A stretch of DNA of 64,000 nt from contig CALKJO010000002.1 of NCBI GenBank assembly GCA_937995825.1, forward strand, positions 248,001 to 312,000, in the 5' to 3' direction. This DNA is from an uncultured Anaerolineae bacterium (lineage in GTDB: Bacteria > Chloroflexota > Anaerolineae > Aggregatilineales > Phototrophicaceae). Every line of letters begins with the position of its first letter. Positions within the stretch are counted from its first letter, which is position 1. The notes beneath the pieces are model-generated. The model worked only from the letters and a program-made list of their open reading frames with translations, did not search any database and was not told the origin of the DNA. A program made the position numbers and the translations under genes. This document shows positions 46,435 to 63,250 of the stretch, in pieces.

Positions 46435-46435
46435 C

Positions 46436-46573: not shown

Positions 46574-46659
46574 TCTCCACATGGTCTACTGGAAATCCTT
46601 CACTCGATCTTCCGTGATGTAGTTGGTAGCTGAAGTGAGCCTGACGTCCCTGCTGCTCA

Positions 46660-46687
46660 TTGACTGTACCTGACGTTGGGATAGGTT
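46660..46687 (+). promoter_or_regulatory. Candidate promoter of the ACIII-puf operon
   Basis: TTGACT at 46660-46665 and TAGGTT at 46682-46687, 16-base spacer, 43 bases before the actF ATG. The -10 box is weak. Confidence 0.35.
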
Positions 46688-46729
46688 TTTTAGCTGTTCT
46701 AGGTTCCAATCAACCATAAAGAGTGGCGT

Positions 46730-47917
46730 ATGCAGCAATCACAGTCTAACTCGATAAGCCTCAGTTCTGTCCAGATCGGCGCGATTGCCGTTGCCGTGAT
46801 CGGTCTGATCCTCGGATTGATCGGCGCGACCAGCGATGCCGATCACTTTTTCCAGGTCTATTTCCTCGCATTTCTGTTCTGGCTTCAGATCGCGCTTGGG
46901 TGCCTTGGGGTCGTGCTGCTGCTCAATGTGCTGAGCAGCCCGTGGGGCTTTGCCATTCGGCGCATCGCTGAAGCAGGGGCGCGCACGCTGCCGCTGCTGG
47001 GGGTGCTGTTTCTGCCCATCCTGCTTGGCATGGAGCGCATCTTTCCGTGGGCGAAGGCGGGCGTCGTCGTCGCGGGCAATAAAGGCTTGTTCATGACGCC
47101 GGGTCTGTTCGCGCTTCGCGCCATCATCTATTTCGCTATCTGGATCGCGCTGGCGTATCTGCTGACGATCTGGTCATACAGCCAAGATCGCAGCAGTGAC
47201 CCCGAAGCGATCCGGCGGCGCGCGCATCCGGTCGCAATTGTCGGCATCATCTTGTTCTTCCTGACCACGACCTTTGCCGCCTTCGACTGGATCATGTCGG
47301 TCGAGAAAGGCTGGTTCTCCTCGGTGATCGGCTGGTTGTTTGTGAGTCAGCAGATTTTGAGCGCAATCCCGTTTGCCATTCTGGTGCTGGGGACGCTCTG
47401 GGATCGACCGCCGCTGGCGAAGGTGGCGCGGAAGCAGGTGCTGATCGACTTGGGATCGCTGATGCTGGTCGGCTTGCTGCTTTGGACGTATCTGAGCTAC
47501 ATCCAATACATCGTGATCTGGTCGGGCAACCTGCCCGAGAAGATTCAATGGTACGTGACGCGCAGCGCGGGCGGCTGGGAAGGCTTCGTCATCTTGATGG
47601 CGATCTTCCACGCCATCATCTTCGTGATGCTGATCGTTCCGGGGCTAAAGCAGGTCAAATCGGTCATGCTGGTGATCGCCGGCGCGCTGTTGGTGCTGCG
47701 CTTCATCGAGATGTACTGGCTGATCATGCCGTCGATGAGCGCAAGCTTCGCGCCGCGCTGGTGGGATTTGGCGCTGGTTGCCGCGTTCGGCGGGGCATTT
47801 TGGGCGATGTTCCTGTGGTCGCTCAACAGCAACCCGCTGATCCCGGTCAAACATCCTGAGCTGCCGAAAGCGCTGCGAGAGGCGGATGACGATGCTCAAG
47901 CACAGATCGCGATTTGA
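46730..47917 (+). CDS. actF: Alternative complex III subunit ActF (quinol-binding, NrfD-like)
   Basis: 395 residues with about ten membrane helices. Begins ahead of a helix IGAIAVAVIGLILGLIGATS, then FFQVYFLAFLFWLQIALGCLG, the usual ActF opening, and later VEKGWFSSVIGWLFVSQQIL and QYIVIWSGNLPEKIQWYV, conserved family elements near the proposed quinol site. ACIII oxidises quinol and passes electrons to c-type cytochromes, replacing the bc1 complex. The gene precedes actA, whereas described operons usually place it after actE. The next gene is 109 bases away. Confidence 0.88.
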   Translation: MQQSQSNSISLSSVQIGAIAVAVIGLILGLIGATSDADHFFQVYFLAFLFWLQIALGCLGVVLLLNVLSSPWGFAIRRIAEAGARTLPLLGVLFLPILLGMERIFPWAKAGVVVAGNKGLFMTPGLFALRAIIYFAIWIALAYLLTIWSYSQDRSSDPEAIRRRAHPVAIVGIILFFLTTTFAAFDWIMSVEKGWFSSVIGWLFVSQQILSAIPFAILVLGTLWDRPPLAKVARKQVLIDLGSLMLVGLLLWTYLSYIQYIVIWSGNLPEKIQWYVTRSAGGWEGFVILMAIFHAIIFVMLIVPGLKQVKSVMLVIAGALLVLRFIEMYWLIMPSMSASFAPRWWDLALVAAFGGAFWAMFLWSLNSNPLIPVKHPELPKALREADDDAQAQIAI

Positions 47918-48026
47918 CTTGCATTCGCATATGCTCAGTCGGCTGGGGCAGCGCCGCGCCTGTGCAGGCGGCTGTCCATCGTTCCTTCATCGCTCGTATT
48001 GGCTGATGTAGATTGGTTTTAGACCT

Positions 48027-48686
48027 ATGAAGCAAGCTTTCGGAGCAGGTGCAAACACGTTCGCCAAGCTCAGTCTGCTCGGCGGCGGCTTGTTCACCGT
48101 ACTGATTTTGGGTTTGCTGTTCGTCCTCGACCACTCACCTTATACGCGGGGACCTATCGGGGTCGCAGTGAACCAGCCCGTCCGTTTCAGCCATCAGCTC
48201 CACAGCGGTGTGCTGAATATCGACTGCCGCTACTGCCATATCTCGGCAGAACAGGGTGCTTATGGCGGCATCCCTGACACGCACACCTGCATGAGCTGTC
48301 ACTCGCAGATCGCCACTTACAGCGAACTGCTTGAGCCAGTGCGCACCAGCTACGCAACCGGCGAGTATCTGGTCTGGAATAAGGTGCATAACATCGCCCA
48401 GCACGTCTACTTCAATCACAGCGCGCATGTCAACGCGGGCTTTGCCTGCGAGACCTGCCACGGGCGCGTCGATCAGATGCCGCTGGTCTGGCAGCATCAG
48501 TCGATGACCATGAGCTGGTGTCTAGAGTGCCATCGTGAACCGGAGCGTTTCATCCGCACGTATGATCAGGTCTACACCTTCGGCGAACCTGCGCCGGAAA
48601 ACCAGATCGACGTGGGCTTGCAGCTTGTCGCCGCACAGGGCATTGATGTCTCGCGGTTGAGTAACTGTTCGATCTGCCACCGCTAG
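48027..48686 (+). CDS. actA: Alternative complex III subunit ActA, pentaheme cytochrome c
   Basis: 219 residues. One N-terminal membrane helix (about 16-36) and five heme c sites: CRYCH, CMSCH, CETCH, CLECH and, at the extreme C-terminus, CSICH. The NHSAHV and FSHQLHSG stretches supply distal histidines. In ACIII this subunit collects electrons from ActB and hands them to ActE or a mobile carrier on the periplasmic side. Size, heme number and location fit described ActA proteins. Confidence 0.92.
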   Translation: MKQAFGAGANTFAKLSLLGGGLFTVLILGLLFVLDHSPYTRGPIGVAVNQPVRFSHQLHSGVLNIDCRYCHISAEQGAYGGIPDTHTCMSCHSQIATYSELLEPVRTSYATGEYLVWNKVHNIAQHVYFNHSAHVNAGFACETCHGRVDQMPLVWQHQSMTMSWCLECHREPERFIRTYDQVYTFGEPAPENQIDVGLQLVAAQGIDVSRLSNCSICHR

Positions 48687-48703
48687 CAAAGGAAGCAGGA
48701 CCT

Positions 48704-51655
48704 ATGCCCAACGAAATGACTCACCATGAACCCCATGCTGAAGACGGACGTCAGTGGCAGCCGATGCAGCTCATGTCTGAGGAAGACGCCTTTGAAGCCC
48801 TCCTCCGGCGCGATCATCCACGCGAAGCGGCGGCAATGCAGATGGCAAAAGTCAATCGACGCGCGTTCCTCAAGATCATGGGCGCATCGCTGGCGCTGAC
48901 CGGCTTTGGCGCTGTCGGCTGTGTGCCGCGCCGGACGGATGAGCAGATCATCCCCTATGTCCGTCAGCCGGAGGAACTGATCCCCGGTCGTCCGCTCTAC
49001 TTTGCCTCATCGATGGTGCTGGGCGGCTTTGCCACCGGAATTCTCATCGAAACTCATGAAGGTCGCCCGACCCGCGTCGAAGGCAACCCGAATCACCCCG
49101 CGTCGCTCGGCGGCAGCAACGCGATGGTGCAGGCGTCGGTGCTGGAGCTGTATAACCCACTGCGCCGAGTCGGCGTTCTCAATAACAATGCCGCCAGCAG
49201 TCTGGAAAACTTCACCCAGGCGCTTCAGCGCGCGCTGCAAAGCCGCAATGCGGCGGGGCTGCGCCTCCTGACCGAAACCGTGACCTCGCCCACGCTGGCA
49301 GCGCAGATCAAGGCGCTGTTGGAGGCGTATCCAGGCGCGCAGTGGGTGCAGTATGAGCCGGTCTCACGCGACAATGTGATTGACGGGTCGCTTCTAGCGT
49401 TCGGCGAGGTCGTCAACACGGTTTACCACTTCGATCAGGCGGAGGTGGTCGTCTCGCTGGACGCGGATTTCATGGCGTCGATGCCGGGCAGCGTGCGCTA
49501 TGCGCATGATTTCGCCAGCCGCCGCAAAGTCCGCGCCGACAGCGCGAGCATGAATCGGCTGTTCATGGTTGAAAGCACGCCGACGATCACCGGCAGTGCG
49601 GCGGATCACCGCCTGGCGCTGCGTCCATCGCAGGTCGAGACGTTCGCGCGGGCGCTGGCAGCGGCGCTCGGCGTGCCGGTCGAGGTTCCGACGGCGCGCC
49701 CGTGGCCATCCGCCTGGTTCGACGCCGTCGTCGCCAATCTGCGCGCGGCGGGTTCAAGCATCGTGATCGCGGGCAATGAGCAGCCGCCGGCGGTTCACGC
49801 GCTGGCGCACGCGATCAACGCGGCGCTCGGCAACGTCGGCACGAGCGTGGTCTACACCGCGCCGGTCGAAGCCAATCCAGTCAATCAGCGCGCGGCACTG
49901 GCTGAGCTCGTGGCGGACATGGAGGCGGGGCGCGTCGAGACGCTGATCATGATCGGCGGCGACCCGGTCTACAATGCGCCAGCCGATATCCCATTCGGCG
50001 CGGCGCTCAGCAACGTGCCGTTCACTGCCCATCTGTCGTACTACAACAACGACACGTCGGCGCGCAGCGCCTGGTTCATCCCGCAGACGCACTACATCGA
50101 GGAATGGAGCGACGCGCGCGCCTATGACGGCACAGCCAGCATCGTCCAGCCGCCGATTGGCCCGCTCTATGATACAGTGGTCTCGGCGCACGAGCTGCTG
50201 GCGCTGCTGACCGGCGATACGCGCTCCGGCTACAACATCGTCCGCGAATACTGGCAGTCGCAGTATCAGGGCGGCGATTTCGACCGCTTCTGGCGGCGCG
50301 CCCTGCATGACGGCGTCGTCCCGGACAGCGCTCTGCCCCCCGTCTCGCCGACGCTGGTCAGCGATCTAAACGCAGCGCTTGGCGCGCCCACCGCAGCGCC
50401 AGGCGGGCTGGAGCTGGTCTTCCGCCCCGACCCGAATATCTGGGATGGGCGCTTCGTCGGCAATGCCTGGCTGCAAGAGCTGCCCAAGCCGCTGACCAAG
50501 ATCACCTGGGACAATGCCGCGCTGGTGAGCGCTGCAACCGCGCGCCAGTTGGGGCTGCGCAATGAAACGCTGGTGCGCCTGACCTATCAGGGGCGCGAGA
50601 TGGAAGTCCCCGTCTGGATCACGCGCGGACAGCCGGATGATGTGATCACCGTCAGCCTCGGCTATGGGCGCGGACTGGGCGCAGATGTGGACGCCGGGCG
50701 CAGCTTCAACGCCTACGCCATCCGCACGTCGGCAGCGCCCTGGTTCGTCAGCGGCGTCACCGCCACTGCGACGACCATCCGCTATCCGCTGGCGACCGTG
50801 CGCGCCAATATGGAGACAGAGAACACCGAGCATGTCCATCTGCTGTCGCTGGCGGAGTTCCAGGCGAACCCCGATCTCTACCTGGCGCACACGCCGGAGA
50901 ATTCGGCGTATCCGCCGTTCGCATACGACAGCTATTCATGGGGCATGTCGATCGATATGACCTCGTGCATCGGCTGCAACGCCTGCATCATTGGCTGCCA
51001 GACCGAGAACAATATCCCCGTCGTCGGCAAGGATGCAGTGCGGCGCGCGCGCGAGATGCACTGGCTGCGCGTGGATCGCTACTACGTCGAGGATGCCAGC
51101 GGGAGCGAACGGACGGTTTTCCAGCCGCTGCCATGTATGCACTGCGAACAAGCGCCGTGCGAGCCGGTCTGCCCAGTGACCGCAACGGTTCACGACTCGG
51201 AAGGTCTGAACACGATGATCTACAACCGCTGCGTCGGCACGCGCTATTGTTCAGCCAACTGCCCGTACAGTGTCCGCCGCTTCAACTATCTGACCTACAA
51301 CACGGACGAGCCGCTCAATGCCGAATGGCGCAACCCTGATGTGACCGTGCGCATTGAAGGTGTGATGGAGAAATGCACCTACTGCGTGCAGCGCATCTCC
51401 GAAGCGCGTATCAATGCCAAGAACGAAGGACGCCCGATCATGGATGGCGAAGTCACGCCCGCCTGCGCGGCTGCCTGCCCGACCAAAGCGATTGTGTTCG
51501 GCAATCTGAACGATCCGGCGGCGCAGGTGGTGGCGCTGAAGGCGCAGCCGCATGATTATGGTGTGCTGGCGGAACTCAACACCCGACCGCGCACCACCTA
51601 TCTCGCTCGTATTGTCAATCCCGATGAGTCGCTGCGTGGAACAGCAGGTGAGTAA
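48704..51655 (+). CDS. actB: Alternative complex III subunit ActB, iron-sulfur protein with Mo-protein-like domain
   Basis: 983 residues. A Tat-like N-terminus (NRRAFLKIMGASLALTGFGAVGC) may end in a lipidated cysteine. The large middle part resembles the molybdopterin oxidoreductase fold (FFGAALSN-like stretches, ASLGGSNAMVQASVLELYNP) but carries no molybdopterin ligand, as in other ActB proteins. The C-terminal third is ferredoxin-like with CIGCNACIIGCQTEN, CMHCEQAPCEPVCPV, CVGTRYCSANCPY and CTYCVQRI...CAAACPTKAI: three 4Fe-4S and one 3Fe-4S cluster are expected. AGGAAGCAGG serves the ATG. Confidence 0.92.
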   Translation: MPNEMTHHEPHAEDGRQWQPMQLMSEEDAFEALLRRDHPREAAAMQMAKVNRRAFLKIMGASLALTGFGAVGCVPRRTDEQIIPYVRQPEELIPGRPLYFASSMVLGGFATGILIETHEGRPTRVEGNPNHPASLGGSNAMVQASVLELYNPLRRVGVLNNNAASSLENFTQALQRALQSRNAAGLRLLTETVTSPTLAAQIKALLEAYPGAQWVQYEPVSRDNVIDGSLLAFGEVVNTVYHFDQAEVVVSLDADFMASMPGSVRYAHDFASRRKVRADSASMNRLFMVESTPTITGSAADHRLALRPSQVETFARALAAALGVPVEVPTARPWPSAWFDAVVANLRAAGSSIVIAGNEQPPAVHALAHAINAALGNVGTSVVYTAPVEANPVNQRAALAELVADMEAGRVETLIMIGGDPVYNAPADIPFGAALSNVPFTAHLSYYNNDTSARSAWFIPQTHYIEEWSDARAYDGTASIVQPPIGPLYDTVVSAHELLALLTGDTRSGYNIVREYWQSQYQGGDFDRFWRRALHDGVVPDSALPPVSPTLVSDLNAALGAPTAAPGGLELVFRPDPNIWDGRFVGNAWLQELPKPLTKITWDNAALVSAATARQLGLRNETLVRLTYQGREMEVPVWITRGQPDDVITVSLGYGRGLGADVDAGRSFNAYAIRTSAAPWFVSGVTATATTIRYPLATVRANMETENTEHVHLLSLAEFQANPDLYLAHTPENSAYPPFAYDSYSWGMSIDMTSCIGCNACIIGCQTENNIPVVGKDAVRRAREMHWLRVDRYYVEDASGSERTVFQPLPCMHCEQAPCEPVCPVTATVHDSEGLNTMIYNRCVGTRYCSANCPYSVRRFNYLTYNTDEPLNAEWRNPDVTVRIEGVMEKCTYCVQRISEARINAKNEGRPIMDGEVTPACAAACPTKAIVFGNLNDPAAQVVALKAQPHDYGVLAELNTRPRTTYLARIVNPDESLRGTAGE

Positions 51656-51664
51656 GGAAGAACT

Positions 51665-53062
51665 ATGTCAACTTTAGACATCGTACCAGGCAAATCGAGT
51701 CCGAACGAGCCGCAATCCCTGACTGTGCGCCAGCAGCCGCCGGATAACACCATCGGCGGGGTGTCCGATCAGATCACCGCCGTCAGTCTGGGCAAAGCGC
51801 CGCTCTGGTGGTGGATCGGGCTGATCTGCTCGGTCGCGCTGCTCGGCGTGTTCGCTTTCACCCTCGGCTCGATTGCGATCCGAGGGACAGGCTTATGGAA
51901 CTTGAGCATCCCGACGATCTGGGCGATTGACATCGCCAACTTGATCTTCTGGATCGGTATCGGTCACGCCGGCACGTTCATTTCGGCGTTCCTGCTGCTG
52001 CTGCGCTTCAAATGGCGCGGGACGTTCAGCCGGTTTGCCGAAGCAATGACGATCTTCGCGCTGGCGACAGCAGGTCTCTTCCCGCTGTTCCATCTCGGTC
52101 GGATCGAGTATTTCTACTATCTGGCTCCGTATCCGAACACGATGTGGATGAATCCGCAGTGGCGCAGCCCGCTGATCTGGGACTTCTTCGCCATCAACAC
52201 CTATCTGCTGATCTCGCTGCTGTTCTGGTTCATCGACCTGATTCCAGACATTGCCGCGCTGCGCGATAAAGCAAAAGCGCCGGTGCTGAAATTCTTCTAC
52301 AACATCCTGGCAATGGGCTGGCGCGGTGATATGTTCCACTGGGAAGGCTTGCGCAAAGCCGCTTTCACGCTCGCCGTGATCGCCACGCCGCTGGTGATCT
52401 CGGTTCACAGCATCGTCGGCTTGGACTTTGCCGTCGCCATCACCCCCGGCTGGCATCACACGATCTTCCCGCCGTTCTTCGTCGTCGGCGCGATCTTCTC
52501 CGGCATGGCGATGGTGATCCTGTTCGGCGTGATCCTGCGCTCCGGCTTCAAGCTGCAAAACCTGATCCCGCTGTCGCACATGGACAACGCCGCGAAATTG
52601 CTGCTGCTGACCGGTATGCTGGTGGTCTACGGCTACCTGATCGAGGCGTTCGGCGCGTGGTTTGCCGATGATGCCTTCGAGTTCGCGCTGGTCGCCAACC
52701 GCAGCACAGGTCCGTTCGCGCCGGCGTTCTGGGGCATGATCTTGCTCAACGCGCTGCCCATTCAGGCGCTCTGGTTCAAGAGCGTGCGCCGCAGCCCGAC
52801 CGCGCTGGTGGTCATCGCGCTGTGCGTGCTGCTGGGGATGTGGCTGGAACGCTTCGTGATCATCCCGGTCAGCCTGTCATATCCGTACCTGGAGAGCATG
52901 TGGAATGTCTACACCATCGGCGTCTGGGACTTCCTGACGATCATCTCGCCGTTCGGCTTGTTCCTGACGCTGATGTTCATCTTCATCCGCATCCTGCCGA
53001 TCATCTCGATTGCCGAAGCCAAACAACACCTGGCGGAGGAGGCTGAACATGCCCACCAATAA
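51665..53062 (+). CDS. actC: Alternative complex III subunit ActC (NrfD family)
   Basis: 465 residues, about ten membrane helices, member of the NrfD/PsrC family. [20 protein letters not shown] is the first helix. [33 protein letters not shown] and [20 protein letters not shown] are the family landmarks near the quinol site. [33 protein letters not shown] is also typical. It overlaps actD by 14 bases. AAGGA precedes the ATG. Confidence 0.93.
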
Positions 53063-53597
53063 AGCAACCCCCTTGTATGGGATCGCGGCGGAATTCGACG
53101 ACGCCGATAAGCTCAAGCAAGCTGCGGCGGCGCTGCGCAAAGCCGGCTATACCGAGGTGCGCGCCTTCACGCCCTACTGGGTCGAGGGACTGACCGAGCT
53201 GCTCAGCCCGCGCACGTTCAACTTCGTGCCATATCTGGCGATTGGCGGGCTGTTTCTGGGCTTGCTGGCGGGCTTCCTGCTTCAGTATTACACGTCGGTG
53301 GTGTCTTATCCGCTGAACGTCGGCGGGCGTCCGCTCAACAGTTGGCCCTCGTTCATCCTGGTGACGTTTGAAGTCGGGATTTTGTTTGCGGGCGTCGGCA
53401 CGGTGCTGGGGTTCTTCCTGCAGACCAATCTGCCGCTGCCGTATCACCCGATGTTCAACGCGCCTCGGTTCGAGCTGGCGTCCCGCGACGGCTTCTTCCT
53501 GTGCGTCGAGGTGACGGATAAGAAATTCAATCTGGACAAGACCAAAGCCTTGCTGCAAAGCCTGGGGTCATTGAACGTGAGCGAGGTGCCATGTTAA
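53049..53597 (+). CDS. actD: Alternative complex III subunit ActD (DUF3341)
   Basis: 182 residues from ATG 53049, with GGAGGAGG upstream. Begins [20 protein letters not shown], then a soluble alpha/beta part with GYTEVRAFTPYWVEGL, two membrane helices (about 60-80 and 100-125), and a C-terminal soluble part (GFFLCVEVTDKKFN). This is the DUF3341 layout of ActD, a membrane subunit without cofactors that stabilises ActC. It overlaps both neighbours. Confidence 0.93.
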   Translation: MPTNKATPLYGIAAEFDDADKLKQAAAALRKAGYTEVRAFTPYWVEGLTELLSPRTFNFVPYLAIGGLFLGLLAGFLLQYYTSVVSYPLNVGGRPLNSWPSFILVTFEVGILFAGVGTVLGFFLQTNLPLPYHPMFNAPRFELASRDGFFLCVEVTDKKFNLDKTKALLQSLGSLNVSEVPC

Positions 53598-54220
53598 CAC
53601 CAATGCACACCACCCAACGGGCGTCGTCACGACGCCTCTCCCCACTGCTGATCGCGCTGGCGCTGCTGCTGATGGCGGGCTGCCGCAATATGCAGCAGCA
53701 GCCCAAGCTGGCTGCGCCATACGATGAGAGCGTTTTATTCGGGCGCGCGGCGCGCGAAATTCTGCCGGAGGCAGTCCCTGTCGGCTTCCTGCGCGACGAT
53801 GAACTGCTGCACACCGGGATGCAGAACGGTGAACTGGCGACCGAATTTCCGTTTCCGATCACGCGCGAAATCCTGGAGACCGGTCGGTCGCAGTACAACG
53901 CCTTCTGCGCCCCTTGTCACGGCTATGCCGGCTATGGCAACGGCGTGATCGTCGTCGAGGGCTTCCCGATGGCGCGCTCATTCCACACCGAAGAGATGCG
54001 CAGCGCGCCCGTCGGACGCTTCTACCGCGCCATCGCCTACGGCGTGGGCGTGATGTATGACTACGCGGCGCGCGTGCCGGTTGATAAACGCTGGGCGATT
54101 GTCGCGTATATCCGCGCCCTTCAGCACAGCCAGAACGCCGCCTACGCCGAGCTGCCCGCCGAAATTCAGGCGCAGCTTGCGCAGACTGGAACTCAGACCA
54201 CGGAGGCGATGGGATCATGA
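53591..54220 (+). CDS. actE: Alternative complex III subunit ActE, monoheme cytochrome c lipoprotein
   Basis: 209 residues. Lipobox ALALLLMAGCRN suggests a lipid anchor. One heme site, CAPCHGYAGYGNG (about residue 100), with a downstream methionine in GFPMARSFHTEEMRS as possible sixth ligand. In ACIII this subunit passes electrons to a mobile carrier or to the reaction-centre cytochrome. The stop overlaps the ATG of the next gene. Confidence 0.92.
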   Translation: MLTPMHTTQRASSRRLSPLLIALALLLMAGCRNMQQQPKLAAPYDESVLFGRAAREILPEAVPVGFLRDDELLHTGMQNGELATEFPFPITREILETGRSQYNAFCAPCHGYAGYGNGVIVVEGFPMARSFHTEEMRSAPVGRFYRAIAYGVGVMYDYAARVPVDKRWAIVAYIRALQHSQNAAYAELPAEIQAQLAQTGTQTTEAMGS

Positions 54221-54858
54221 CCACCTATCAGAATCGCGCCTTCGCGAATGAAAACATCGTCGTGGATGGCAACCGCTACGTCGCCTGTTCGTTCCGCAGC
54301 GTCGGCTTGATCTACAAGGGCGGCGATCTGCCCAGCTTTGAGGGCTGCACCTTCCAGGGCATGACGCTGCAGCTTGGCGGATCGGCGCTGTCCACCGTCC
54401 GCTACCTGAGCGGGCTGCATCAGGGCGGGATCGTTGCGCCGGTCGAGGCGACGCTCAAGCGCATCGAGGCGGGTCCGCCGTCGCCAGAGGCGGCGCGGCG
54501 CTATAACCCCGAATATACCGGGACAAACTGGGGGACGCTGGGCTTTGCCAGCCTGATCTTGGTCGGGGTGACGCTGCTGCTGCTGCTGGCGTTCCATTAT
54601 GGCTTGCAGGTCGCCCCGCGCACGCAGTTTCTCAACGCCAACCCGCCGCGTCCACTGGCGGCGCAAATTCCGCTGGAGCTGATGCCGGCGCTGCCGGATG
54701 AGCTGGCGGTGGCTTACGATGAGCTGCGCGCGTCGCAGCTTCAAATGGTGACCAGCTACGGCTGGATCGATGAAGCGCAGGGCGTCGTTCATATTCCGGT
54801 CGATGCCGCAATCGATCAATTGCTTGCAGCCGACGGGTTTCCGGTAGCGGGAGAGTAG
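54217..54858 (+). CDS. ACIII-linked membrane protein with an N-terminal CxF/GG-repeat domain
   Basis: 213 residues. The N-terminal 67 residues (motifs VDGNRYVACSFRS, LIYKGGDLPSFEGCTF, STVRYLSGL) form a compact beta domain, found again as a stand-alone protein in the next gene. One membrane helix at about 107-129 (LGFASLILVGVTLLLLLAFHYG). The C-terminal part ends YGWIDEAQGVVHIPVDAAIDQLLA, a 'Y-G-W-x-D-x-x-x-G-V-V-x-I-P' motif that I associate with small proteins encoded near cytochrome oxidase and ACIII gene sets. It could be an assembly or peripheral ACIII subunit. ATGA overlap with actE. Confidence 0.6.
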   Translation: MTTYQNRAFANENIVVDGNRYVACSFRSVGLIYKGGDLPSFEGCTFQGMTLQLGGSALSTVRYLSGLHQGGIVAPVEATLKRIEAGPPSPEAARRYNPEYTGTNWGTLGFASLILVGVTLLLLLAFHYGLQVAPRTQFLNANPPRPLAAQIPLELMPALPDELAVAYDELRASQLQMVTSYGWIDEAQGVVHIPVDAAIDQLLAADGFPVAGE

Positions 54859-55128
54859 ATGATGGAAACGGTTGAAAATCAGGTCTTCCGTGACCAATCG
54901 GTCGAAGTCGATGGAAAACAGTTCACAAAATGCACGTTTCGCAACGCTCGGCTGTCGTATGCGGGCGGCGCGCTGCCGGCTTTCATCGATTGCAGGTTCA
55001 GTAATGTCAGCTTGGAGTTCACGCAGGGAGCAGCCAATACTATCGCCTTTCTGAGTGGGCTGAAGGGGCGCGGTTTCGACGTCGCCATCGAGCAGCTCAC
55101 CAGCGCGATTCGTGAACACAGGTTCTAA
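54859..55128 (+). CDS. Stand-alone homologue of the CxF/GG-repeat domain
   Basis: 89 residues. Motifs [29 protein letters not shown] and NTIAFLSGL line up with the N-terminal domain of the previous protein over about 60 residues. No membrane segment or signal peptide, so it should be cytoplasmic, the same side as the partner's N-terminus if that has the positive-inside orientation. It is the last gene before the light-harvesting genes. It may bind the preceding protein. Function unknown. Confidence 0.6.
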
Positions 55129-55155
55129 GACATCCTTATTTCCTTTTGGAACTAC

Positions 55156-55171
55156 AGAGCCGACTGGCTCT
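55156..55171 (+). promoter_or_regulatory. Stem-loop upstream of pufB
   Basis: AGAGCC, loop GACT, GGCTCT: a perfect six-pair hairpin in the 89-base gap after the CxF-domain gene. It could be an attenuator or mRNA-processing site between the ACIII and puf messages. Confidence 0.35.
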
Positions 55172-55217
55172 TGGGTTCAGCAGTCTGCTTGCCATCAACG
55201 TTAAAGGGAGGAAACTG

Positions 55218-55430
55218 ATGGCTGACAATATCGTGGTGGTGACCACCGAAGAAGATCGTGAGGTCGTGGTTGTTGAAAACGACCGCGTGCCGGACAAATG
55301 GAAGGGGCTTTTCAACAACGAAGAGTGGCTGATGCACGACATCGTTGTCAAAGCTACCTACGGTTTCCTTGTGATCGCGATCATCGCGCACACACTCGTT
55401 TTCCTGTGGCGCCCGTGGCTGGGCAACTGA
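55218..55430 (+). CDS. pufB: Light-harvesting complex beta polypeptide
   Basis: 70 residues from ATG 55218 (AGGGAGG upstream). An acidic N-terminal half, then [34 protein letters not shown] (split here into the helix and its ends). The histidine before T-L-V ligates bacteriochlorophyll, and the terminal W-R-P-W-L is diagnostic of beta chains. The extended acidic N-terminus (about 35 residues) is longer than in purple bacteria. Pairs with the alpha chain encoded next to form the membrane antenna. Confidence 0.92.
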
Positions 55431-55454
55431 GTGATATCCGAAGGGGGATATAAA

Positions 55455-55616
55455 ATGAGCGACAATCCGCAAGAAAAACTGGTCGTCCAGCGCAAAGAGC
55501 GTCCCGTTGAGTTCCGCACCGTGATGCTGCTCTACGTGCTTCTGGGCTTGGGTGTCGGTCTGACGATTCATTTCATTCTGCTCAGCACCCCGACCTACAA
55601 CTGGCTGGGTGGCTGA
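55455..55616 (+). CDS. pufA: Light-harvesting complex alpha polypeptide
   Basis: 53 residues from ATG 55455 (AGGGGG upstream). A single membrane helix at about 25-42 with the bacteriochlorophyll-ligand histidine in GLTIHFILLST, followed by PTYNWLGG, the classic alpha C-terminus. Rest of the protein is a charged N-terminal tail facing the cytoplasm. 24 bases after pufB, forming a beta-then-alpha order. Confidence 0.93.
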   Translation: MSDNPQEKLVVQRKERPVEFRTVMLLYVLLGLGVGLTIHFILLSTPTYNWLGG

Positions 55617-55651
55617 GCGTCCTGTAATGTGCGCAGGATAATCTGCACGCG

Positions 55652-55703
55652 GCGGACAGGCGGGCGGCGCCAAGCTTCGGCTCCGCGCCGCCGCCCTGCC
55701 CGC
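55652..55703 (+). promoter_or_regulatory. Intercistronic stem-loop between pufA and pufLM
   Basis: Arms 55652-55670 and 55685-55703 are complementary at 16 of 19 positions. The inner eight pairs (GGCGGCGC with GCGCCGCC) are perfect, and the loop contains AGC-TTCG-GCT, a C(UUCG)G tetraloop. Very stable as RNA. It is placed where purple bacteria carry a stabilising hairpin in the puf message. Confidence 0.7.
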
Positions 55704-55735
55704 TCCAAGACATGAATTAGAAAGCGAGACGACCG

Positions 55736-57616: not shown

Positions 57617-57686
57617 CCCGGATGATCGGATGACAGGGGGGAATGGGGTGGTCATGCAAAGCAGTAGAACCATCGACTTGTCGTCA

Positions 57687-57710
57687 GGCGCAGAGCGCAC
57701 CGCCTGCGCC
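57687..57710 (+). promoter_or_regulatory. Stem-loop between pufLM and pufC
   Basis: GGCGCAG (57687-57693) pairs with CTGCGCC (57704-57710); inside, GCG and CGC add three pairs around a CAC loop with one bulged A. It lies 71 bases after the pufLM stop and 21 bases before the pufC start. Confidence 0.5.
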
Positions 57711-57730
57711 GCGAGACAATGGAGGATCAG

Positions 57731-58690
57731 ATGTTACGTCGGGTTTTAGGCGAACGTGGATTGTTCCTGTTCACGTTTGGGCTGATCACGCTGACCTTGT
57801 TGGGCGCGACCGCCTGGGTGGTCACGTTCGTCTGGCAGCGGGTCAGGGTAGATAATTTGCTCCGAGTGGACAACGCGCTTTCGGCGATCTACGTCAACTA
57901 TTACAACAGCGCGGACAACTACGTGAGCGCGGACTCGTATCTGGCAATGGCGGCGTATCAGCGCGATTACGTGCGTCCGCAGAATGTGCGCGTGCTGACC
58001 GGCTTGGATACGCAGGGCGTGATCGGCTATATGCTCAATCATATCAGCGCCGGCATGGGCGTGAACTGCACCCACTGCCACACGCTGGCGAATTTCGCCG
58101 CCGACATGTGGGACGATCCAGTCGGGGTGGCGAATAAGCGGCTGGCGCGCGAACACCTACTGATGGTGCGCGATCTCAATCAGGAATGGATCGCCACGCT
58201 TGCATCGCTGACCGATCGGCGGCGTCCATCCGGCGCGCAGGTGACCTGCGCGACCTGCCACAACGGCGTTCCCGTCCCGCAGTCGTATCCAGCCAATCAA
58301 GAAGGCGTCCCGGATGATTTCCGGCTGCCGCTAGGGGAAGATGTGGTTTTCAGCGTTGAACAGCAGGGCATTCTCAATGTCAACGCGCGGCGGGATATTT
58401 CGCTCGACACAGTGCAGTACAACCAGAACGTCATGTATCACATGAACCAGAGCCTGGGCGTCGGCTGCACGCACTGCCATAACTCGCGTTACTTCCCAAG
58501 TTATGAAGTGCCGGCGAAATACTATTCACTGCACATGCTGCAAATGTCGCAGTTTCTGGTCTCGAATTACAGCGACGCGCTGCGCGGTCAGCAGCCATCC
58601 TGCAACCTGTGCCATCAGGGCGCCGCGATCCCGCCGGGCGCGGCGCGGTCAGCGGACGTGATGCCGGCGGCGCTGGTCGCCAACGACTAG
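57731..58690 (+). CDS. pufC: Reaction-centre tetraheme cytochrome c subunit
   Basis: 319 residues from ATG 57731 (GGAGG upstream). One N-terminal membrane helix (about 10-32) rather than a lipobox. Four heme sites: CTHCH, CATCH, CTHCH and CNLCH, with methionine axial ligands in YMLNHISAGMGV, HLLMVRD and HMNQSLGVG. This is the four-heme donor that re-reduces the special pair on the periplasmic side. Its electrons would come from ACIII through a mobile carrier. Normal family length. Confidence 0.94.
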   Translation: MLRRVLGERGLFLFTFGLITLTLLGATAWVVTFVWQRVRVDNLLRVDNALSAIYVNYYNSADNYVSADSYLAMAAYQRDYVRPQNVRVLTGLDTQGVIGYMLNHISAGMGVNCTHCHTLANFAADMWDDPVGVANKRLAREHLLMVRDLNQEWIATLASLTDRRRPSGAQVTCATCHNGVPVPQSYPANQEGVPDDFRLPLGEDVVFSVEQQGILNVNARRDISLDTVQYNQNVMYHMNQSLGVGCTHCHNSRYFPSYEVPAKYYSLHMLQMSQFLVSNYSDALRGQQPSCNLCHQGAAIPPGAARSADVMPAALVAND

Positions 58691-58718
58691 GCACGCAGAC
58701 ACCCGCCATCGGCGCGCG

Positions 58719-58748
58719 GAGGGGTGTTTGCTTGATCAAACACCCCTC
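58719..58748 (+). terminator. Stem-loop after pufC
   Basis: GAGGGGTGTTTG (58719-58730) pairs perfectly with CAAACACCCCTC (58737-58748), six-base loop, 12 pairs. No U tract follows, so it may protect the puf message 3' end rather than stop transcription alone. Confidence 0.55.
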
Positions 58749-58838
58749 ACCGCAGCACTGAAAGCGCATCGAAGCCTTGAGCGTGCCAGCGCACGCCTAA
58801 AACGCGCACTTGCAGCCATCTTTCGTGGATAAGTCTGG

Positions 58839-59759
58839 ATGGGAATGAAGATTAACCAGCAACCTACCGAAAACGTCGCACTCCCCGTCGTTCGACCGCC
58901 CGTACTGGCGCGATCCCTGGCGCTGATGAAGCCGATCACGTGGTTTGCGCCGATGTGGGCATTTTTATGCGGCGCGGTCGCCAGCGGGGCGGTCGAGTTC
59001 ACCGTTGGCGACATCCTCCGCGTGATCCTTGGGTTGGTGATGGCGGGTCCAATTTTGTGCGGATTGTCGCAGGTCATCAACGATTATTTTGACCGCGAGA
59101 TCGACGCGATCAATGAGCCGCACCGCCTGATCCCCGCCGGATTGGTGACGATCCAGCAGGTGATGATCACGATTCTGCTGCTCGCCCCGATTGGCATCGG
59201 CATCGCGCTGATCTTAGGGCGCGGCGTGCTGTTGTTCACCGGTATCGGGCTGCTGCTGGCGCTGGCATACAGCGCGCCGCCGATCCGCGCCAAGCGTAAC
59301 GGCTGGGCGGGCAACACCGTGGTCGCGATTGCTTATGAGGGGCTGGCGTGGCTGGCGGGGCATATCGCTTTTGCCCCGCTGACAGGTCCGAGCATCCTGC
59401 TGGCAGGGCTGTATTCGTTCGGCGCGCACGGCATCATGAGCATCAACGACTTCAAGAGCATCGACGGCGACCGCAAAACGGGGATCAAAACGATCCCGGT
59501 GCTGTACGGTCCGCAGGGCGCGGCGTGGCTGATCGTGATCACGATGAACCTGGCGCAGCTGGGCGTAATCGTCGCGTTCGCAGCCTGGGGGCAGTGGTTC
59601 GCGGTGCTGGGGATCAGCGCGATCCTGCTGGCGCAGCTTCCCTTGCAGCGCCGGTTTTTAAACAACCCGATGGAAAATTTTCTGAAATTCAGCGCCATTG
59701 GCGTGAGTATCTTTGTCTGGGGGATGCTGGCGTCGGCGGTTGCCGTGCGCGGGCTGTGA
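58839..59759 (+). CDS. bchG: Bacteriochlorophyll synthase
   Basis: 306 residues. UbiA-type prenyltransferase with nine or so membrane helices. The first aspartate-rich motif is NDYFDREIDAINEPHRLIP and the second DFKSIDGDRKTGIKTIPV, both diagnostic of ChlG/BchG. It attaches geranylgeranyl or phytyl to bacteriochlorophyllide. It is 148 bases after pufC, past the stem-loop, and may have its own promoter. The order bchG-bchP is common in phototrophs. Confidence 0.95.
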   Translation: MGMKINQQPTENVALPVVRPPVLARSLALMKPITWFAPMWAFLCGAVASGAVEFTVGDILRVILGLVMAGPILCGLSQVINDYFDREIDAINEPHRLIPAGLVTIQQVMITILLLAPIGIGIALILGRGVLLFTGIGLLLALAYSAPPIRAKRNGWAGNTVVAIAYEGLAWLAGHIAFAPLTGPSILLAGLYSFGAHGIMSINDFKSIDGDRKTGIKTIPVLYGPQGAAWLIVITMNLAQLGVIVAFAAWGQWFAVLGISAILLAQLPLQRRFLNNPMENFLKFSAIGVSIFVWGMLASAVAVRGL

Positions 59760-59801
59760 CCCCCCTTCTCTGCTGGTTGAGTGTGCTTGAGGGTATCGAC
59801 C

Positions 59802-61010
59802 GTGGTAAAGCCGATTGTGGTGGTAGGGGCGTCTGTGGGCGGGTCAACCGCCGCTAACACGCTCACTCAAGCGGGTCTGCCTGTGATTCTGCTGGAGCGC
59901 GACCTGAGCTGGGTCAAGCCGTGCGGCGGTGCGCTGCCGCCGGTGGCGTTTGAGGAGTTCGACATTCCCGAAAGCCTGATCGCGCGCAAGGTGCATAAGG
60001 CGACCATCCACTCCCCATCCGAGCGCGTCGCGGAGATCGATGTCGCCGGCAAAAAGCGCCGCAGCAATGATTATGTGGCAATGACCTGCCGCGAACAGCT
60101 CGATCCGTATCTGCGCAGTCGCGCCGTCGCCAATGGCGCGGAGCTGATCGAAGGCAAACTAACCGGCTTATCGGTTGAGGCGGACGGCGTGAAAGTCACG
60201 TATGCGCCGAAAAACAGCCGCGCCAGCCGCGTGATCGATGCGGAGGTGGTGATCGGCGCAGACGGCGCGTATTCGACGACTGCCAAACTGCTCAATCTGC
60301 CGCGTCTGCCGCAGTGCGTCGCCATTCAGGAGCGGATCGTTTTGCCGCCGGACAAGATGGCGCGCTGGGAAGACACTGCCAGCCTCTATCTGGGCGAAGA
60401 TATCAGCCCTGACCTATACGCCTGGGTGTTTCCAAAGGCGGATCATGTCGCCATCGGCTGCGGCGCGGGTCCGGGCAAGACCAAGGCGATGCGCCAGCTT
60501 CTCGCCAATCTGAAGGCGCGCTTGGGCGATCAGATCGCCGGCGGCAAAACCATTATGGAAGAGGCGCACGCGCTGCCGATCCATCCGCGCAAGCACATGG
60601 CGTTCGACCGCGTGATGCTGATCGGCGATGCAGCGGGCTTGGTCGCGGGGACATCGGGCGAGGGCATCTACTGGGCGATGAAAAGCGGACACAATGCCGC
60701 CAAGACGCTGGCTGAAGTGCTGCCGCAGACCTCGGCGGCGGCGCTGCGCCAGTACGAGCGCCGGTGGTGGAAGGAATACGGCACGATGTATCGCTTCCTG
60801 CGCTGGCTTCAGCGCTGGGGCTATGGCAGCCGCCGGCAGATGGAGGTCTTCACCGACATGTGCCGCAACCGCGACGTGCAGCAGCTTACGTTTGAGTCGT
60901 ACATGCACAAGCGCATGACGACCGTCCCCTGGGCAGCGCAGATGCGCATGACGGGCGACATCATCGCGGCGCAGGTGCGCCATTATCTGCCAGTGAGGGC
61001 GGCAAGCTGA
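59802..61010 (+). CDS. bchP: Geranylgeranyl reductase
   Basis: 402 residues from GTG 59802 (GAGG upstream). FAD-binding Rossmann motif VVVGASVGGSTAANTL, then WVKPCGGALPP, the conserved CGGAxP of the BchP/ChlP family, GADGAYSTTAKLL, and VMLIGDAAGLVAGTSGEGIYWAMKSG. It reduces the geranylgeranyl tail of the pigment to phytyl. Its stop overlaps the ATG of the PuhE-like gene. Confidence 0.93.
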   Translation: MVKPIVVVGASVGGSTAANTLTQAGLPVILLERDLSWVKPCGGALPPVAFEEFDIPESLIARKVHKATIHSPSERVAEIDVAGKKRRSNDYVAMTCREQLDPYLRSRAVANGAELIEGKLTGLSVEADGVKVTYAPKNSRASRVIDAEVVIGADGAYSTTAKLLNLPRLPQCVAIQERIVLPPDKMARWEDTASLYLGEDISPDLYAWVFPKADHVAIGCGAGPGKTKAMRQLLANLKARLGDQIAGGKTIMEEAHALPIHPRKHMAFDRVMLIGDAAGLVAGTSGEGIYWAMKSGHNAAKTLAEVLPQTSAAALRQYERRWWKEYGTMYRFLRWLQRWGYGSRRQMEVFTDMCRNRDVQQLTFESYMHKRMTTVPWAAQMRMTGDIIAAQVRHYLPVRAAS

Positions 61011-61825
61011 TGCTGACACTGACTCACCTGCTGACGGTCGCTTTCACGATGTTCGTATGGTGGTTCTCCACCGGCGCGATCATGGCAGTTTACGGGCGTT
61101 CACAGCGCTTCATCGGCTGGGTCTTTGGCGTTTGGACGCTCGGCTTGATCCCAGCATTGCTCGGGCTGTGGATGACGCGCAGCCGGACGGACGTGCTAGA
61201 TGTGTATCTGGCGGTCGCCTGTGCAGTGATCATCTGGGGCTGGCAGATCGCGGGCTATTTCTTCGGCTTCATCACCGGCCCGCGCCATCCGCAGATCATC
61301 ACACTGCATGAGCCAGTCCCGCTCTGGGATCGGTTCCGGCTGGCGCTCAGCTTCAGCCTGCATCATGAGCTGTTCGCTGTCGGCGGCGCGGTCGTGATCG
61401 CCTTGATCGCGCTGGGACAGCCGAATCCCTGGGCGCTGTGGATGTATCTGATCCTTTGGCTGATGCACACCAGCGCCAAGCTGAATGTCTTTCTTGGCGT
61501 GCGCAATTTCAGCGTCGAGATGCTGCCGCAGAAGATGCGCTATCTCGAAGTTGTGTTCGGCAAACAGCGGCACAACTTGCTGTTCCCATTTTCGATCACA
61601 TTCGCCGTCAGCGCGGCGATTTTCCTGCTCTACCAGACGATTGCGCCGGACACCGAACCGGCTCACAGCGTCGGCGCGGTCATGATCGCGACGATGATCG
61701 GCTTAGGGACGCTTGAACACCTGCTGCTGATGCTGCCGCTGTCCGCCACGCTCTGGGGCTGGGGCATTCGCGCCCTGCCGCAGACCGCCGAGTCCGATTC
61801 GATGGCAGAAGGAGGCGCACAGTGA
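61010..61825 (+). CDS. puhE: PuhE-like photosynthetic complex assembly protein (DUF3623)
   Basis: 271 residues, about seven membrane helices. The order VWWFSTGAIMAVYGR, GYFFGFITGPRHP, SFSLHHELFAVGGA, MHTSAKLNVFLGVRNF and GLGTLEHLLLMLPL is that of the PuhE/DUF3623 family, found only in anoxygenic phototrophs and required for photocomplex assembly in purple bacteria. Coupled to bchP by a one-base overlap and to the hydrolase gene by a four-base overlap. Exact role in this organism is inferred. Confidence 0.85.
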   Translation: MLTLTHLLTVAFTMFVWWFSTGAIMAVYGRSQRFIGWVFGVWTLGLIPALLGLWMTRSRTDVLDVYLAVACAVIIWGWQIAGYFFGFITGPRHPQIITLHEPVPLWDRFRLALSFSLHHELFAVGGAVVIALIALGQPNPWALWMYLILWLMHTSAKLNVFLGVRNFSVEMLPQKMRYLEVVFGKQRHNLLFPFSITFAVSAAIFLLYQTIAPDTEPAHSVGAVMIATMIGLGTLEHLLLMLPLSATLWGWGIRALPQTAESDSMAEGGAQ

Positions 61826-62706
61826 ACGGCGCGGCGATTTTAACGCAAAGTGGCGCAGCCGCATCCGCTTCTGGACTTACAGACACGCTGCGCGTGCCGG
61901 TTCGCAGCGGCGAGATGGTGGTCGATGTCTGGCGGGCGCGGACGGCGACTCAAGCAGCGCCGATCCTGCTGGTGCATGGCTGGGGCGGGACGGGGAGCTA
62001 TTGGCGCGCAACGGCGGCGCTGCTGTCGGAGACGACGACGGTGATCGTGCCGGATTTACCCGGCACTGGGCGCTCGCAGCCAGTGCGCCGCGCGCAGAAT
62101 ATGTACGATCAGGTGAACGCGCTGCGCCAACTGCTCGACTATCTCAAGCTGGATCGGGTGCAGGTGGTCGGGCATTCGATGGGCAGCGCGATGGCGCTTT
62201 TGCTGGCGGACGCGCAGCCCGGGCGGATCGAGCGGCTGGTGCTGACCTCGCTGAGCTTTTTCGTGACCGAGAGCCAGCAGCAGATTTACCGCGTTTTCAT
62301 GGGCGCGTTCGCGCTGACGATGGTCTTTCGACCGAGCTGGCTGGAAAATATGCCGGCGATGTGGCGGATGATGGCGGCGCGCTATTTTCACCGCATCCCC
62401 GATGATGAGGCGATCCTCAGGCAGGGCTGGAGCGATTACCTGCGGCTGGATTACGGCACGGCGATTGCCTGCGCCAAAAATGCCGCCGATTCGAGCATCC
62501 CGAAGGCGGGCGCAACCATCCGCGTGCCGACGCTGCTGATCGCGTGCCGGCAGGATCAGGTGATGCCGGTGGAGAACGTCGCGTACACCGCGCAGACGAT
62601 CCCCAACTGCGAAGTGGCGTGGATCGATCAGTGTGGGCATATGCCGATGATCGAACAGCCGGACATCTATCATGCGCATCTGCGCCGTTTTCTGGCGCTG
62701 GAATAG
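61822..62706 (+). CDS. Alpha/beta hydrolase of the photosynthesis operon, possible BchO-type
   Basis: 294 residues from GTG 61822 (AAGGAGG upstream). Oxyanion region LLVHGWGGTGSYW, nucleophile VGHSMGSAMALLLA, acid in CRQDQVMPVENV, histidine in QCGHMPMIEQP: complete triad. BchO of purple bacteria is also an alpha/beta hydrolase in the bacteriochlorophyll set, with an accessory role in magnesium chelation. Context, not sequence, suggests the parallel here. An alternative is a chlorophyllase- or lipase-like enzyme. Confidence 0.7.
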   Translation: MNGAAILTQSGAAASASGLTDTLRVPVRSGEMVVDVWRARTATQAAPILLVHGWGGTGSYWRATAALLSETTTVIVPDLPGTGRSQPVRRAQNMYDQVNALRQLLDYLKLDRVQVVGHSMGSAMALLLADAQPGRIERLVLTSLSFFVTESQQQIYRVFMGAFALTMVFRPSWLENMPAMWRMMAARYFHRIPDDEAILRQGWSDYLRLDYGTAIACAKNAADSSIPKAGATIRVPTLLIACRQDQVMPVENVAYTAQTIPNCEVAWIDQCGHMPMIEQPDIYHAHLRRFLALE

Positions 62707-62716
62707 GGGGCGCGGC

Positions 62717-63250
62717 ATGAGCGGGGACATCGATCTGCACTACCTGAACGACATTTTGGTCAACCGGATGAAGGTCAAGCGTCAGCCGGTGGCGATCACC
62801 ACCCCGCAGGGCGCGCGCCGTAACAAGGAACAAAGCTATTCGCTGCCGCGCGGCGCAATCACTGCGCTTGCTGCCGCGCCGCTCCACGATGTGCCGGACG
62901 GCGTTCAGGTCGATCTGATGGTCTGCGTCTGCAACACGCAGCAGGCGACGCAGATCGCGGGGGCGGCACCGGTGCGCGAAGGGAAGTTCCCGCATGGCGA
63001 GAGCCGATTGTCAGCGTGTTCATCGATTTTTGCCGCGCCCTGGCACACCCAAAACGGCGTTCTCGCCACAGGTGACGGCGGCGGTCGCGCCTTCAATCAC
63101 GTCGCGGTCAGCGATCTGTTCGTGTCGATCCCGCGTCGCCATTTCGGTTACACCATCGAGCTGATCGGAAACCTCCGCATCAACCCTGAGAAGATGCGCG
63201 AAGCGATCATGCCGTCCCATGCGCCTAAATCCGACTCGGATTCAGACTGA
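62717..63250 (+). CDS. DUF169-like protein at the end of the photosynthesis block
   Basis: 177 residues from ATG 62717 (AGGGGG upstream). NRMKVKRQPVAITTP matches the 'L-x-x-R-P-V-A-V' opening of DUF169 proteins; later VQVDLMVCVCNTQQATQIAG, SACSSIFAAPW and GDGGGRAFNHVAVSDLFVSIP line up with the C-terminal half of that family. It is shorter than usual (about 230-250). Three cysteines (CVC, ACS). Function unknown. Eleven bases after the hydrolase gene. Confidence 0.5.
   Translation: MSGDIDLHYLNDILVNRMKVKRQPVAITTPQGARRNKEQSYSLPRGAITALAAAPLHDVPDGVQVDLMVCVCNTQQATQIAGAAPVREGKFPHGESRLSACSSIFAAPWHTQNGVLATGDGGGRAFNHVAVSDLFVSIPRRHFGYTIELIGNLRINPEKMREAIMPSHAPKSDSDSD

Follow-up and report, generated by a model that had tools for sequence, protein, structure and literature searches.

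An alternative complex III operon set directly before a Roseiflexus-type puf block in phototrophic Anaerolineae

Genes and order of the act-puf locus

We describe a photosynthesis locus in a window of 64,000 nucleotides (bases 248001-312000 of the 566,774-bp contig C2) from an uncultured bacterium of the Anaerolineae order Aggregatilineales, whose assembly of 3.49 Mb is 93.7% complete. Open reading frames (ORFs) and Pfam matches place on the plus strand, from 46730 to 62706, the genes actF-A-B-C-D-E of alternative complex III (ACIII), two small genes, the antenna genes pufB-A, a fused pufLM, pufC, bchG, bchP, puhE and a hydrolase gene (Table 1). A sequence-only reading had listed this gene set and strand, and all the genes were found at their places, actF with the help of tblastn. 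The run is longer than that reading had it: past 62706 it continues on the same strand through a shortened DUF169 gene and a small conserved gene to pucC, which starts at 63882. By the ORF coordinates the spacing inside the run is at most 148 bp, versus 578 bp 5' of actF, and actD, actE, actG and orf8 overlap or abut.

The ACIII subunits encoded are a pentaheme ActA, a Mo/FeS-like ActB, an NrfD-type ActC, ActD, a monoheme ActE and ActF. The two small genes that follow had been read as unknown proteins. By profile comparison the first (54217-54858) encodes ActG, subunit seven of ACIII, with a pentapeptide-like domain fused to it: a profile of 16 act-operon homologues matches ActG of the solved ACIII structure (PDB 8k9e chain G, E 3.6e-15); the single sequence reaches E 0.25 only. 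Its C-terminal half carries the motif SYGWVD..IPI.RAM...GLP, common to short ORFs beside act genes at 11 loci outside the act-puf group (G454, G073, G150, G153, G209, G105, G161, G353a, G353b, G359 and G214). With actG present, the window operon has the seven subunits of the Chloroflexus type. A search with the single actG sequence found actG at 0 of 8 Roseiflexaceae (f61) loci, which is a weak result because the same search misses Chloroflexus, which has ActG. R. castenholzii is reported to lack actG (PMC3150298; papers are cited throughout for the parts of their text available to us).

The second small gene, orf8, is a paralogue of the N-terminal 77 residues of ActG (E 8e-19). In TC_71, a phototrophic relative of the same order, actG is without this domain. 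In the predicted orf8 model, of moderate confidence (mean pLDDT 75), nine short strands accompany two helices; the weak pentapeptide-repeat matches are consistent with this. A fold search with the model gave 0 matches at E <= 0.001; from weak matches to an SV2 luminal domain and pentapeptide proteins we draw no reading.

The reaction-centre half is of the Roseiflexus type by its fused pufLM, its tree position (see below) and the order puf-bchG-bchP-puhE. pufLM is the only PF00124 gene detected in the genome. The PF12291 (DUF3623) gene is the one we take to be puhE, and the hydrolase gene is a candidate BchO-like gene.

Table 1. Features of the act-puf run, in window positions
Feature	Position	Strand	Evidence and remarks
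intergenic 578 bp, presumed promoter region	46152-46729	.	divergent M3 peptidase gene on other side; sole long gap of unit
actF, ACIII membrane subunit	46730-47917	+	no Pfam match; tblastn 32-46% to ActF of other act operons
actA, pentaheme cytochrome c	48027-48686	+	Pfam cytochrome c7/c3; five CxxCH
actB, Mo/FeS-like subunit	48704-51655	+	PDB 8k9e_B E 4.1e-297, 6lod_B E 1.4e-295
actC, NrfD-type membrane subunit	51665-53062	+	PF03916 E 2.6e-23
actD	53010-53597	+	PF11821 E 1.3e-53
actE, monoheme cytochrome c	53591-54220	+	PF13442 E 1.1e-8; one CxxCH
actG with N-terminal pentapeptide-like domain	54217-54858	+	profile match to 8k9e_G; N-half paralogous to orf8
orf8, small pentapeptide-like protein	54859-55128	+	in 5/5 act-puf loci covering this stretch
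pufB, antenna beta	55146-55430, likely start 55218	+	PF00556 E 3.1e-8; start from alignment to relatives
pufA, antenna alpha	55431-55616	+	PF00556 E 2.4e-4, slightly below curated cut-off; position same in relatives
pufA-pufLM spacer, strong stem-loop	55617-55735	+	dG -54.7, z -2.8; no U-tract
pufLM, fused reaction-centre L and M, 626 aa	55736-57616	+	PF00124 twice in one ORF, E 1.8e-151
pufC, reaction-centre tetraheme cytochrome	57719-58690	+	PF02276 E 1.2e-23; four CxxCH
pufC-bchG spacer, long stem	58691-58838	+	dG -58.6, z -2.5; no U-tract
bchG, bacteriochlorophyll synthase (UbiA-type)	58839-59759	+	PF01040 E 1.1e-35; position same in Roseiflexaceae
bchP, geranylgeranyl reductase	59781-61010	+	FAD_binding_3, GGR_cat; 65-76% to positional relatives
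puhE (name assumed)	61010-61825	+	PF12291 (DUF3623) E 3.5e-67
alpha/beta hydrolase, kept in unit	61822-62706	+	PF00561 E 6.5e-29; position same in Anaerolineae clusters
shortened DUF169 gene	62672-63250	+	PF02596 positions 90-205 only; longer gene 3' of bchX in TC_71 and Roseiflexaceae
small photosynthesis-cluster gene	63269-63835	+	tblastn matches in G446, G427, G142, G385; no Pfam match
pucC/lhaA start, runs beyond window	63882-64000	+	PF03209 E 5.1e-99 on adjoining stretch

Recurrence of the junction and transcription of the run

The order act-actG-orf8-pufB occurs in five genomes: that of the window and the metagenome-assembled genomes (MAGs) TC_152, SM2_1_5, RI_153 and 'Litorilinea sp.' N1_Bin_METABAT_82 (N1_Bin_82 below). 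The proteins of the window unit are 34-79% identical, gene by gene, to those of the other four. TC_152, SM2_1_5 and TC_71 belong to the order of the window, TC_152 having been placed in Aggregatilineales by Ward et al. 2020 (PMC8067394); RI_153 and N1_Bin_82 form a second clade, whose 'Caldilineaceae' label is taken from locus L242 alone. The TC_71 operon actF-A-B-C-D-E-G reaches the end of its contig in actG, and the genes from pufLM on lie on another contig that starts just 5' of pufLM. We count TC_71 among the six act-puf rows in the trees although its junction is split in this way.

The adjacency is thus no accident of assembly, since four other MAGs share the junction and rpoB lies on the same contig. 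A mis-joined boundary between actE and pufB, a concern of the sequence-only reading, is rejected on the same ground, and the search for the same gene order in Chloroflexota which it proposed was answered by these four MAGs. A contaminating contig is unlikely: rpoB and one COX1 gene stand on the same 567-kb contig, and G516, a MAG of the same genus, has the end of PufLM. On its 6805-bp contig C535 the last ~67 aa of PufLM are followed by pufC-bchG-bchP-puhE-hydrolase-bchF-bchC.

PufLM loci were taken from named genomes as the best of 115 relatives, with purple bacteria among them, which gave 77 loci. For 47 of these at least 5 kb 5' of pufLM is available, with act 5' of puf in 3 and absent in 44; a fourth act-puf locus, that of TC_152 (L207), is covered for 3.8 kb upstream. 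The seven Roseilinea-like (f3) and two Chloroflexaceae loci examined have no act near puf. Among 48 act loci actF comes first in 4 and after actE in 27, and the remaining 17 have no ActF or weak matches only. PufLM itself was found in 5 of 154 searched genomes of the window's order. For the MAG TC_22 the presence of a reaction centre was left open by Ward et al. 2020 (PMC8067394). No PufLM relative was found in viral contigs. In SM2_1_5 (L040/L226) actB, orf7 and pufLM have frame breaks on one contig with coverage 2.8, from sequencing error or decay.

A simple consensus scan of the plus strand found the gaps between actF and bchP free of terminator-like sites. The 578-bp region 5' of actF holds no sigma-70-like consensus match, and the promoter scan gave 2 matches, against 5.0 expected from shuffles, with none in the gap 5' of act or puf. 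From this layout we infer that the run would be transcribed from one region upstream of actF. The alternative is that act and puf are two neighbouring operons, co-inherited and separately transcribed or regulated, their adjacency being due to shared transfer or to chance. A puf promoter would have room in the ~90 bp before pufB (~280 bp in RI_153 and N1_Bin_82). A gene with MerR and B12-binding domains stands 5' of pufB on the opposite strand in seven fetched Roseiflexaceae (f61) loci and in L209 and L210, two Anaerolineae loci with no act upstream (L049:12064-13068 and L210:7329-8648 by Pfam, L209:6287-7576 by tblastn). This regulator possibly serves light or oxygen control of puf; as the gene is divergent from pufB in these loci, puf was perhaps formerly regulated on its own. 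Around the act-puf loci no match to the regulator was found, a negative that covers more than 2 kb 5' of actF only for the window and L242/L296, and AL-N1 (L211), which has no act, is without a match as well. The internal stem-loops also bear on the question. In six relatives the pufA-pufLM stem-loop has z -1.5 to -6.1 and the pufC-bchG stem z -2.7 to -6.2 (mononucleotide shuffles). They may, we suggest, set different abundances for the parts of one long transcript through processing; strong stem-loops that separate segment abundances would suit two operons too. What speaks against two operons is that actD-E-G-orf8 overlap or abut, that orf8 and pufB have no terminator-like site between them, and that the adjacency is kept between lineages whose ActB proteins are only 55-57% identical. 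Hence, we regard two operons as an unlikely arrangement, though one to be taken seriously, and prefer a single upstream region.

The idea of one act-puf-bch unit, proposed from the sequence, is supported in so far as this same-strand stretch is compact and conserved. Inside the run the bch genes are bchG and bchP alone; contig C16 carries bchF-C-X-Y-Z and, on its opposite strand, bchH together with bchD-like and bchI-like genes (the latter identified by eye). In TC_152, TC_71 and RI_153, bchF-C-X follow directly 3' of the hydrolase. The DUF169 gene of the window is shortened internally relative to its relatives and is possibly a remnant of the site where bchF-C-X were lost.

At the far end a small lipoprotein-like gene follows pucC outside the window, as it does in the MAG SJ142. 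Just past the window end, on the minus strand, a UbiE-like methyltransferase and an FAD oxidoreductase adjoin pucC (L037:2397-4366). Homologues of this pair adjoin a pucC-like gene 5' of puf in SJ142 (L210), and a homologue of the oxidoreductase lies 5' of actF in TC_71. Since phototrophic Anaerolineae are reported without bchM (PMC5826079, PMC8446752), the UbiE-like methyltransferase may, speculatively, be a candidate for its substitute.

Histories of the reaction-centre and ACIII halves

The two halves of the unit differ in their tree positions. Supports below are values of the Shimodaira-Hasegawa-like approximate likelihood ratio test (SH-aLRT) from quick trees, except in the more careful PufLM tree with the nine-row clade. 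With four act-puf genomes, PufLM falls with Roseiflexaceae (support 100). In the wider tree a nine-row Anaerolineae clade (100/100) sits inside the fused-PufLM group and consists of the six act-puf rows, L209, L210 and KLAP72. KLAP72 (L255) was placed in the group without act, its contig starting inside pufLM; the absence of act upstream is seen for L209 and L210 only.

Two fused-pufLM loci may be described here. SJ142 (L210, L297, L298) has a same-strand cluster puf-bchG-bchP-puhE-hydrolase-bchF-C-X-DUF169-bchY-Z-pucC-lipoprotein, which continues with bchH-like and bchD-like genes (by eye) and has no act in 30 kb upstream. The MAG MGR_bin415 (L241, labelled Herpetosiphonaceae) has a fused pufLM with bchG-bchP-puhE, its RpoB groups with the non-phototroph G150, and it is a possible further phototrophic lineage.

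ACIII (ActA-D concatenated) of the six act-puf genomes, TC_71 included, forms one clade (99) outside all sampled Chloroflexia-type ACIII, and does not group with Roseiflexaceae. The approximately unbiased (AU) test rejects such a grouping for the concatenated set of six genomes (p 0.0004; p 0.025 with four) and for ActB alone (p 0.0019). A grouping with G454, a non-phototroph of the same order, is also rejected (p 0.0475 with 35 rows, p 0.0035 with 37). The ACIII trees leave out seven of 46 loci (G470, G468, G122, G347, G449, G241 and G473), and the concatenated tree also G118a, G353a, G246b and G222b, which have no ActC/ActD. The comparison of gene trees proposed in the sequence-only reading thus gave a mixed answer: PufLM groups with Roseiflexaceae and both halves lack the step between orders that RpoB shows, but ACIII has other closest relatives. 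This does not look like one Roseiflexus-type block carried over whole; by their tree positions the act and puf halves look as if they were joined from different sources. Two features that do not depend on trees bear on this too, the F-first gene order and the presence of actG.

In the RpoB tree, from which the fragments G414 and G455 are left out, RI_153 and N1_Bin_82 stand together (99) outside all other sampled Anaerolineae, and the phototrophs of the window's order sit among non-phototrophs. A single clade of five act-puf genomes is rejected by RpoB with p 6e-67 (SM2_1_5 left out). The RpoB distance from the window genome is 1.14 to RI_153, versus 0.62 to TC_152 and 0.70 to TC_71. The corresponding values are 0.38, versus 0.28 and 0.38, for PufLM and 1.13, versus 0.85 and 1.15, for ACIII. 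Because the step between orders seen in RpoB is missing in both PufLM and ACIII, the data point to a move of the act-puf unit between orders, Aggregatilineales and the 'Caldilineaceae' clade. In PufLM RI_153 pairs with N1_Bin_82 (86/89), but in ACIII the two are successive branches (95).

Another reading is a superoperon already present in the ancestor of Anaerolineae, inherited vertically and lost in most lines. Within the window's order the PufLM branching roughly fits the family grouping, and the PufLM data allow the six act-puf rows to form one clade (p 0.09). Such a history has to account for the missing step between orders, for 149 of 154 searched genomes of the order being without a PufLM match, and for the rejection of a species-like grouping by PufLM (p 0.004). 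We consider it quite improbable and favour transfer. The suggestion that the unit is a ready cargo for horizontal transfer is supported insofar as the same unit stands in two distant clades at distances that fit block transfer; no borders of a transferred segment came to light. PepF orthologues from nine same-genus genomes were used in the search for an empty site, and no other window gene lay beside them in the fetched stretches, several of which were short.

We also propose, more tentatively and as somewhat less than an even bet, that ACIII is a swappable module. Some respiratory lineages carry actA-G 5' of cytochrome oxidase genes. In the window a separately derived actF-A-E-G would have been put before a Roseiflexus-type block, replacing the MerR/B12-type regulator. 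The resulting self-contained cyclic circuit would then spread between Anaerolineae orders as one package and make phototrophs of hosts that respire with cytochrome bc1 in one step.

Proposed role of the linked ACIII and known systems

The window actB encodes the only full-length ActB found in its own genome (94%-complete assembly). Elsewhere the genome has two COX1 genes and one cytochrome b gene, the latter with Rieske-like and cytochrome c-like neighbours (by eye). Judging from this gene content, a dedicated photosynthetic role of the window ACIII is plausible, and so is a division of labour between ACIII and bc1 in one cell. A search of 101 genomes of the order found full-length ActB relatives of at least 50% identity in 3 of 4 phototrophs versus 1 of 97 others (Fisher p 1e-4); among these phototrophs the ActB of SM2_1_5 has a frame break and the TC_152 locus ends in ActC.

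Alternatively, this would be a general-purpose ACIII that serves respiration and photosynthesis alike, its position before puf being incidental. In Chloroflexus ActCDF of the Cp operon is made in both modes (PMC9316378), and the two COX1 genes of the window genome would fit a respiratory use. Among non-phototrophs of the order G454 encodes a full-length ActB at 53%, and others have ActB relatives at a greater distance (30-37%, some split in two ORFs). ACIII was also reported in MAGs of the order, non-phototrophs included, by Ward et al. 2020 (PMC8067394). ACIII as such is therefore not limited to phototrophs. Nor is it needed for phototrophy in the class, since the cultured relative strain ZRK33 has phototrophy genes and no ACIII (PMC8941918) and Roseilinea lacks ACIII as well (PMC8446752). 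A general-purpose complex is harder to reconcile with the separate cytochrome b gene and with the distribution of full-length ActB of the window type; cox-like genes follow actG in two of six inspected act loci (L136 and L141, by eye) and are not evident in the other four. We hold general use to be improbable, about as much so as two separate operons, and take a dedicated role to be likelier.

We suggest that the locus is a photosynthetic superoperon. It would go back to an ancestor of part of the phototrophic Anaerolineae, in which an ACIII module, actF-A-B-C-D-E-G, came to lie directly before a Roseiflexus-type puf-bchG-bchP-puhE block; the unit would since have been transcribed from one region, have supplied a dedicated ACIII and have spread as a whole. 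We give this reading a probability of roughly 70%. For each protein we take the role known for its family. In the proposed circuit PufBA and PufLM would capture light, and the reaction centre would hand electrons back to menaquinone. ACIII would oxidise the menaquinol so produced and pass the electrons through a small periplasmic carrier to PufC, thus closing the cyclic chain. BchG and BchP would complete the pigment tail, and PucC and PuhE would aid assembly. The reaction centre would thereby take the place that cytochrome oxidase has beside ACIII-Cr in Chloroflexus.

Several observations weigh against a superoperon with this history. L209 and L210, with no act upstream, lie in the same PufLM clade as the act-puf rows. 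With ActC alone a grouping of ACIII with Roseiflexaceae is not rejected (AU p 0.062), and a clade uniting ACIII of all phototrophs (the phototrophic Chloroflexales) is not rejected with 35 rows (p 0.40) and is rejected weakly with 37 (p 0.028). The ACIII branches of the act-puf clade are long, so that their attraction to the base of the tree is possible. SM2_1_5 has no actF in the 725 bases available 5' of actA, in addition to its frame breaks. No conserved flanks or empty insertion site were found. The spacer before pufB and the ACIII of non-phototrophs, both described above, are to be counted here as well.

Phototrophy is thought to have spread through Chloroflexota by horizontal transfer; the genes of Chloroflexus are scattered, so the route of a working chain is puzzling. 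A linked block of quinol oxidase, antenna, reaction centre and pigment-tail genes in two distant host clades is a concrete vehicle. This raises the possibility that an almost complete light-driven electron circuit moved from one lineage to another in a single package. It is also a test case for two halves of one photosynthetic chain with different histories, and it predicts the use of ACIII in light and of bc1 in dark within one cell. Joint acquisition of ACIII and phototrophy was already proposed by Ward et al. 2018, for CP2_42A (PMC5826079). For the physical act-puf linkage, the identity of actG and the spread over two clades we found no description in the open-access papers searched. The available parts of the literature gave no mention of act next to puf (e.g. 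PMC5826079, PMC7729410, PMC8941918, PMC7842958 and PMC3150298, and likewise PMC9316378, PMC8446752, PMC9426454, PMC10972752, PMC7143216 and PMC8067394).

The phototrophs that Ward et al. describe from Aggregatilineales (CP2_42A, TC_152, TC_71 and TC_22) share the order of the window, and TC_152 shares the junction as well (L207). Physical act-puf linkage was not found mentioned in the available parts of these reports; CP2_42A is not among the examined loci by name.

Roseiflexaceae resemble the window in the fused pufLM and, in five of seven f61 loci, in the order pufB-A-LM-C-bchG-bchP-puhE (in G142 and G385 bchG is followed by bchF-C-X). Unlike in the window, no act, actG or orf8 was found near this block, and the divergent MerR/B12-type gene precedes pufB. 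ACIII of Roseiflexaceae is encoded elsewhere in the genome, e.g. ~1 Mb away in G166.

In the heliobacterial photosynthesis gene cluster, too, electron-transport genes lie inside the cluster (PMC7143216). Heliobacteria differ in having another complex III and a type I reaction centre, and in being Firmicutes. The electron-transport genes of their cluster include b6c genes.

Chloroflexus aurantiacus offers two comparisons. Its ACIII-Cp (actABCDEFG, Caur_0621-0627) likewise has seven subunits including ActG, and it is the proposed menaquinol oxidase of the photosynthetic chain, like the role we propose for the window ACIII (PMC3150298, PMC9316378). However, ACIII-Cp lies far from the reaction-centre genes and has actF after actE, whereas in the window actF comes first and the operon adjoins puf. 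The likeness to Cp claimed in the sequence-only reading therefore stands for the proposed role and not for the lineage: in the ActB tree the Cp and Cr rows stand together (94) in the Chloroflexaceae part, and the act-puf rows form a separate clade (100) outside both. The 'respiratory superoperon' of ACIII-Cr (Caur_2133-2144) also joins ACIII to the genes of an electron-acceptor complex (PMC3150298). There the acceptor is cytochrome oxidase and actCDF are absent, whereas in the window the acceptor is the reaction centre.

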